The notes under the pieces are model-generated. The model did not search any database, was not told the origin of the DNA, and saw only the letters and a list, made by a program, of their open reading frames with translations. Positions 36,287 to 36,769 of a stretch of 51,638 nt of DNA are shown here, in pieces; position 1 is the first letter of the stretch; the number at the start of each line of letters is the position of its first letter. The position numbers and the translations under genes were made by a program. Source of the stretch: an uncultured Pseudomonadota bacterium (lineage in GTDB: Bacteria > Pseudomonadota > Alphaproteobacteria > Rs-D84); assembly GCA_949283535.1 (NCBI GenBank), contig CASDTC010000005.1:1-51638 (forward strand), in the 5' to 3' direction.

Positions 36287-36313
36287 AATGTGGAAATTTT
36301 AAAAAATATAATA

Positions 36314-36319
36314 TATAAT
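36314..36319 (+). promoter_or_regulatory. -10 element (TATAAT) of the structured leader
   Basis: TATAAT in an AT-rich run places a transcription start near 36326, at the base of the first hairpin. No convincing -35. Confidence 0.45.
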
Positions 36320-36325
36320 GTATAT

Positions 36326-36495
36326 TGCATTGGGGAATTCCCAATGTGGGGTTTCGTAGCCTCATACCGAGCGTCCGCAGGGACGAAAAAAACTCCAACC
36401 CGGGTTGGAGGGACTTGAATATATTGAATAAAGTCACAATTCTTGGTAATTGCTACGAACCTCCAACCACCTAAGTTTTTTGGTGGAATTTTTTT
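36326..36495 (+). ncRNA. Candidate structured leader RNA or small RNA
   Basis: About 170 nt with nested complementary segments. A 5' hairpin CATTGGG / CCCAATG lies at 36328-36346. An outer helix TTCGTAGC (36353-36360) pairs with GCTACGAA (36452-36459) and is extended by GGGG / CCTC. Inside it are CGTCC-GCAG-GGACG, a perfect 9-bp palindrome CTCCAACCC / GGGTTGGAG (36393-36410), and GACTT / AAGTC. It ends in hairpin CCACC / GGTGG plus T7 (36467-36495), an intrinsic terminator. A short frame with TTG at 36424 encodes about 16 residues (ending NCYEPPTT), and its stop lies inside the terminator. I recognise no Rfam class. On the minus strand the 9-bp palindrome is itself followed by T7, so an antisense RNA is also possible. 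Confidence 0.5.
36467..36495 (+). terminator. Terminator or attenuator before the XRE-type gene
   Basis: CCACC / GGTGG stem, loop TAAGTTTTTT, then AATTTTTTT. It ends 16 bp before the start codon of the next gene, so it could attenuate it. Confidence 0.6.
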
Positions 36496-36511
36496 AACAA
36501 CGGGGGGAATT

Positions 36512-36769
36512 ATGACAGATAAAGAACTGTATGATATATTTACTGTACGAACAACAACAATACCACCAAAATGGTTATATTATCAAAAACTGGGACAGGT
36601 TTTGCGTGAAATGCGTACAGATGCCAATATTACCCCAATGCATATTATGCGTGATTTAGATATCCCGCCTGATGAATTACGCGAATATGAATCAGGACAG
36701 CGTGAAATATCTATTTATGATTTATTAAACCTGTTAAGTTATATGGAAAAAACACAACCAGAAAAATAG
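36512..36769 (+). CDS. Small XRE-type helix-turn-helix protein
   Basis: 85 residues. The middle and C-terminal part has the five-helix Cro/C1-type layout: GQVLREMRTDANITPMHIMR (helices 1-2), LDIPPDELREYESGQREIS (recognition helix and following turn), then IYDLLNLLSYM. The N-terminal 30 residues (IPPKWLYYQKL) are extra. It may be a local DNA-binding regulator. The start at 36512 has GGGGGG in front; a longer frame from 36443 would cross the terminator hairpin and is rejected. Its connection to the structured leader just upstream is unproven but suggestive of autoregulation. Confidence 0.75.
   Translation: MTDKELYDIFTVRTTTIPPKWLYYQKLGQVLREMRTDANITPMHIMRDLDIPPDELREYESGQREISIYDLLNLLSYMEKTQPEK

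Follow-up and report, generated by a model that had tools for sequence, protein, structure and literature searches.

A C4-like antisense RNA leader as a candidate transcription attenuator of XRE-regulator and secreted-protein genes in Rs-D84 bacteria

Results and discussion

A structured leader in front of an XRE-type gene

The window (the whole analysed stretch of 51,638 nucleotides) is contig 5 of a genome of 830,597 bases, which probably represents a Candidatus Enterousia. These organisms have been placed in the GTDB order Rs-D84 as reduced-genome gut bacteria (PMC12306168). Upstream of a predicted gene for an 85-residue XRE/HTH protein lies a compact series of hairpins that ends in an intrinsic terminator, and the RNA fold of positions 36326-36495 (-69 kcal/mol, z = -4.8) was not equalled by any of 200 shuffled sequences. 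The parts of this leader are as follows.

36291-36319, + strand: predicted promoter, with -35 TGGAAA at 36291-36296 and -10 TATAAT at 36314-36319
36328-36346, + strand: P0, 5'-terminal hairpin CATTGGG-GAATT-CCCAATG, read from the sequence
36348-36363, + strand: hairpin P1, GGGG/CCTC stem with an 8-nt loop containing a1, supported by the covariation counts of helix 1 and helix 2
36353-36359, + strand: a1, TTCGTAG, inside the loop of hairpin P1
36365-36371, + strand: b1, TACCGAG, complement of the P5 loop b', supported by helix 3 covariation and the cognate-versus-swapped test
36372-36385, + strand: P2, variable hairpin CGTCC-GCAG-GGACG, supported by helix 4 covariation
36386-36392, + strand: A-rich linker after P2
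36393-36400, + strand: strand A, CTCCAACC, partner of B, supported by A-B pairing counts and covariation
36403-36411, + strand: strand B, GGTTGGAGG, partner of either A or C, supported by pairing counts and covariation
36412-36435, + strand: P4, hairpin GACTT/AAGTC with the conserved loop GAATATATTGAATA at 36417-36430
36437-36452, + strand: P5, hairpin CAATT-CTTGGT-AATTG whose loop is b', supported by helix 7 covariation
36442-36448, + strand: b', CTTGGTA, P5 loop
36453-36459, + strand: a', CTACGAA, complement of a1, supported by helix 2 covariation
36460-36468, + strand: strand C, CCTCCAACC, second possible partner of B, supported by B-C pairing counts and covariation
36467-36495, + strand: intrinsic terminator CCACC...GGTGG with T tract (T7), its base common with strand C
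36512-36769, + strand: predicted controlled gene for the 85-residue XRE/HTH protein, with ribosome site GGGGGG at 36502-36507

The outer helix (TTCGTAGC/GCTACGAA), the 9-bp palindrome (CTCCAACCC/GGGTTGGAG, 36393-36410), the further internal hairpins and the closing terminator with T7 reported in the initial annotation are all present in the sequence. To that list the 5' hairpin at 36328-36346 has to be added, a hairpin which is kept with altered sequence in other copies, and several copies lack P2. The proposed region is real, though the unit is slightly larger than first described, with the -10 hexamer at 36314-36319 belonging to it: a TATAAT-like hexamer (at least five of six positions) occurs in the 70 nt upstream in 172 of 181 copies, compared with 128 ± 6 in shuffled upstream regions, and mostly sits 25-34 nt before hairpin P1.

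The XRE protein of the window matched Pfam HTH_31 with E = 2e-4, below the Pfam cut-off, and searches of PHROGs and NCBIfam gave just weak HTH-type or unrelated matches. Genes related to it follow the element at 4 other loci, which bears out the association with XRE genes. More widely, XRE-type HTH domains were the commonest Pfam matches among 131 non-redundant downstream proteins (HTH_31, 26 members; HTH_19, 20; HTH_3, 16; the sets overlap), and 66 of 132 proteins looked secreted by a simple hydrophobicity rule.

Covariation of the leader structure

The structure was tested for covariation across 33 copies, with shuffles and slid pairings as controls. The score for the whole structure reached 0.309, compared with 0.127 ± 0.008 for shuffled alignments, while no slid pairing exceeded 0.106, and the proposed structure including its crossing helices paired 83.8% of cells compared with 71.8% after shuffling. 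In the same copies, all seven pairs of the outer helix a1-a' and all six of b1-b' had changes on both sides, as had three of the four pairs in the P1 stem, while the second position of P5 was AU in 17 copies and UA in 16, with none broken. Compensatory changes in homologues, which the initial annotation had named among its checks, are therefore numerous. They show the structure to be conserved, and the part of that annotation which describes a structured RNA of attenuator-type layout, closed by an intrinsic terminator ahead of an XRE-type gene, is supported.

Two sets of helices cross each other, P1 with a1-a' and P5 with b1-b', and since both members of each set covary, both are supported; they may be alternative or may form simultaneously. 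The long-range pairing is also strongly cognate: the P5-a' region scored 18.7 against its own upstream a1/b1 and 11.9 ± 0.2 against swapped ones (181 Rs-D84-type copies).

The same annotation had suggested that the antisense strand might encode a small RNA. A terminator pattern does exist on the minus strand; it is a by-product of the A-B hairpin and the A-rich linker, the latter being A-rich (6 of 8) in just 65 of 181 copies. Because the A-B palindrome and this poorly conserved linker explain the terminator, the minus-strand RNA was rejected.

Copies and distribution

A BLAST search with the element returned nine additional loci in the same genome at E < 1e-5, and a covariance model built from the 33 copies (R1) found 14 copies at E < 1e-8, giving about 14-15 copies in this genome. 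R1 matched 131 of the 142 sampled Rs-D84 genomes (16 of 20 genera of this order), which are about 0.7-1.1 Mb in size, and in 14 alphaproteobacterial genomes outside the order in a class sample, with scores to E = 1e-14. Matching elements come from Candidatus Enterousia, from uncultured gut Alphaproteobacteria and from sequences labelled Rickettsiales; a BLAST search of phages with the window element returned zero matches. Copy number varies widely, with 7, 25, 25, 25 and 50 copies in five further genomes of the genus (E < 1e-4), the top count lying in a genome of about 1 Mb and corresponding to about one copy per 20 kb.

The genome of the window also contains a more canonical RF02221-like copy that R1 missed (L258, 512-599), with a terminator and an XRE gene behind it, and a decayed copy on contig 2 (L168, 64979-65131) with weak cognate pairing and without a terminator.

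Relation to sRNA-Xcc1 and phage C4

The C4 antisense RNA of phage P1 silences the phage antirepressor. In Rfam scans the window copy had zero matches, including to RF02221 (sRNA-Xcc1), RF01695 (C4) and the C4 clan CL00128, in agreement with the earlier remark that it resembled no known class. That remark does not extend to its sister copies, however, which match RF02221 in register below the gathering cut-off of 53 bits (27.5-45.4 bits), nor to the anatomy, which follows the plan of the C4 antisense RNA system. Such in-register matches were found at 6 of 20 distant alphaproteobacterial loci (45.4 bits at L217, 44.0 bits at L226, then 33.8, 30.3, 28.7 and 27.5 bits). Two places in the genome that contains the window matched the RF02221 model as well, one at 44.7 bits and one at 38.0 bits (this one is among the R1 copies), as did two R1 copies in a congener.

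The Rfam model of RF02221 spans just the B-C helix, P4, P5 and a'. This core recurs in the element as a B-C helix enclosing P4 and P5 with a' before C, according to the in-register matches and the B-C covariation; P5 has the b' loop in both, and the P4 loop GAATATATTGAATA is the counterpart of the AAUA-type internal loop in RF02221. In the manner of C4, a1 in a hairpin loop and b1 lie upstream and are complementary to the a'/b' of the core. The order (hairpin-loop a1, b1, core with b' and a') equals that of C4 of phages P1 and P7 (RF01695) with its c4-a1b1 element (RF03163), and hairpin P1 with its a1 loop has the layout of the c4-a1b1 element of phage P1. The phage P1 record itself is annotated in the order a1, b1, c4, a2, b2, icd, and Rfam matches C4 and c4-a1b1 in that region.

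A sample of 30 canonical RF02221 members, taken from other Proteobacteria and all scoring above the cut-off (L227-L256), carries the same upstream a1 hairpin and b1 ahead of the core. In many members, second copies of a and b (a2/b2) also span the beginning of the gene that follows, as with GGAGACACAAGCCATG in L241. The P5-a' region of this sample scored higher against cognate than against swapped flanks, with 21.2 compared with 17.7 ± 0.6 on the upstream side and 18.8 compared with 16.2 ± 0.5 on the downstream side. In the 181 Rs-D84-type copies, by contrast, the downstream flank was near background (15.15 versus 14.60 ± 0.18), with a small residual signal of about 3 SD in these Enterousia-type copies; the signal was absent in 22 distant alphaproteobacterial matches (14.5 versus 15.2 ± 0.5), and for the window copy no a2/b2 was seen where the controlled gene begins. 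The terminator counts are the mirror image, with one after strand C in 1 of 30 canonical members compared with 189 of 203 Enterousia-type and distant copies. Based on these two observations, the second target site appears to have been replaced by a terminator in the Enterousia type. A further difference is the covarying strand A of the Enterousia type, which in canonical RF02221 members was unsupported (15.5 versus 15.1 ± 0.3).

By eye, several genes behind canonical RF02221 members resemble antirepressors of the KilA-N, Rha or Bro type. Related elements also occur at KilA-N genes in Vibrio phages. Rfam nevertheless keeps RF02221 outside the C4 clan CL00128. In the literature sRNA-Xcc1 has been treated as an sRNA, in one case within a symE integron cassette (PMC2996969, PMC12444791, PMC8780938). 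No statement that it is C4-like was found, which is weak evidence as the search was made without the 2011 sRNA-Xcc1 paper. By Rfam's definitions the window copy belongs to neither RF02221 nor C4, but the working analogy to both is well supported at the level of sequence. The Enterousia type differs from sRNA-Xcc1 in its scores below the cut-off and in having a terminator after C instead of a2/b2. It differs from C4 in matching no C4 sequence model, in the same exchange of a2/b2 at the gene start for a terminator, and in its numbers, with chromosomal copies that can reach the tens in front of XRE or secreted-protein genes where C4 has one before icd-ant.

Competing pairings and the terminator

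Strand B can pair with either neighbour. Runs of at least 6 bp were found between A and B in 179 of the 203 distinct copies and between B and C in 192, as at locus L208 (A, CTCTCGC; B, GGCGAGAGG; C, CCTCTCGCC). Among the distant alphaproteobacterial copies, whose strands differ in sequence, both pairings covary (B-C, 0.351 versus 0.134 shuffled; A-B, 0.393 versus 0.195 shuffled). The terminator behind strand C overlaps it by 3-4 nt in 157 of 203 copies, and removal of the part shared with C shortens the median terminator stem from 7 to 3 bp, so that pairing of B with C would be expected to break the terminator base. The leader has the make-up of a transcription attenuator: a terminator between promoter and gene, and an upstream pairing that competes with it.

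In nested energy models, which ignore pseudoknots and leave the true balance of the two folds uncertain, the fold with a1-a', b1-b' and A-B was favoured over a forced B-C fold by a mean of 9.4 kcal/mol before the terminator and 12.2 kcal/mol after it (151 copies). Since these models favour the long fold, termination is the expected default, and with a predicted gap of 9-12 kcal/mol the B-C fold might not be reached unaided.

At loci L210, L215, L207 and L211 the terminator loops read TCATCA and the 5' hairpin loops TGAT(GA). The complementarity of the P0 and terminator loops was 9.2 compared with 8.4 ± 0.15, relatedness between copies being uncontrolled in this comparison, and for that reason the kissing contact which these loops suggest as a possibility is not claimed.

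Private pairing codes

Within the genome of the window, the combined a and b score was 32.9 for cognate pairs and 17.4 for non-cognate ones, close to the random level of 16.7, with a few closely related copies having a common code. In the genome with 50 copies, the 49 intact ones fell into 24 specificity groups under a lenient rule, the largest with 18 members. Copies thus seem largely orthogonal in their pairing code; cross-talk in cells is possible, since the code score is a measure of sequence.

Tandem arrays of two to four copies occur at L276, L106, L111, L089, L070, L102, L180 and L181, mostly without a clear frame between the copies. Some tandem neighbours have a common pairing code and the majority have different ones.

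Proposed mechanism and alternative explanations

The reading that we favour, with a probability of about 0.68, is that the element is a C4-type antisense RNA leader, related to C4 of phage P1 and to RF02221, which has been turned into a transcription attenuator; we infer that it is off by default and stands before small XRE regulators and secreted proteins. Transcription would begin from the promoter of the element itself. By default, the core segments a' and b' would bind the upstream a1 and b1, and strands A and B would pair with each other; this would leave strand C free for its 3' end to begin the terminator, and the XRE gene would therefore be off. In the alternative fold B would pair with C, as in the compact core of C4 and sRNA-Xcc1, taking 3-4 nt from the terminator base and allowing transcription to continue. 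Candidate triggers for this change are a second RNA that shares the a/b code, a host factor or the speed of transcription.

Plasmid antisense attenuators (the pT181 repC and pIP501 RNAIII type) use an antisense RNA from the opposite strand. The likeness lies in a terminator set against an alternative pairing, possibly governed by a copy-specific antisense RNA; unlike in these systems, the antisense segments of the Enterousia type lie within the same transcript. An unlikely, though by no means negligible, variant would have the terminated leader (about 165 nt) released to act in trans, its a'/b' binding a1/b1 of new transcripts from the same locus, and would equally doubtfully produce copy-specific feedback like that of plasmid antisense attenuation. 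The privacy of the a/b codes of most copies (32.9 versus 17.4; 49 copies in 24 groups) fits this variant, as do the tandem copies lacking a clear frame and the action of C4 in phage P1 on a separate target according to its record annotation. Yet cis pairing alone accounts for the covariation, and the separate target site (a2/b2) is not kept.

The initial annotation had instead considered a riboswitch of a novel class or a leader-peptide attenuator, and neither fits the window element. A riboswitch, in which a small molecule or protein bound to the P4 loop GAATATATTGAATA would set the A-B/B-C balance and the copies would form one regulon, is improbable. Many copies of c-di-GMP riboswitches do form one regulon, and the terminator, the many copies before different genes and the strong conservation of the P4 loop (identical in 145 of 181 copies) would suit such a role, but this loop may be structural because it matches the AAUA-type internal loop of sRNA-Xcc1, and the divergence of a/b codes among copies would be unneeded for a common ligand. 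We consider it very improbable that the element is a dispersed, MITE-like mobile repeat without regulatory function: despite the high and variable copy number and the tandem copies, compensatory changes preserve the helices in copies that have diverged to 71-86% identity, the -10 hexamer sits at a constant spacing, with terminator and ribosome site following in order, and related XRE genes stand behind the element at several loci. Translation-coupled attenuation by a leader peptide deserves hardly any credence. A 16-codon TTG frame does run from 36424 to a TAA at 36472-36474 inside the terminator, with GGAGGG shortly before its TTG in the window copy, but the frame is unconserved, the homologous frames being scattered in length from 4 to 47 codons across copies, and strand B is occupied by covarying helices.

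Going beyond the C4-type attenuator itself, the copies could together represent a domesticated phage-type antisense immunity RNA that radiated genome-wide, in genomes of about 1 Mb or less, into tens of largely orthogonal attenuators, each regulating its own gene for a small XRE regulator or surface protein. We put this forward tentatively, with the odds somewhat against it; if true, each gene might possibly have independent on and off states. With up to 50 copies (about one per 20 kb) in front of regulators and secreted proteins, the element may be a main layer of gene control in the uncultured Rs-D84 gut bacteria. The private a/b codes offer a natural library of RNA switches for work on the evolution of specificity and for RNA engineering. 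The anatomy links sRNA-Xcc1, an orphan Rfam family classed as an sRNA that acts in trans, to the C4 system, the variant seen here having a terminator in place of a translational target. The a1/b1 region of phage P1 (L257, 5231-5312) also matches isrK (RF01394) at 35 bits, below the cut-off, which hints that leaders of prophage antirepressors may form a broader family.
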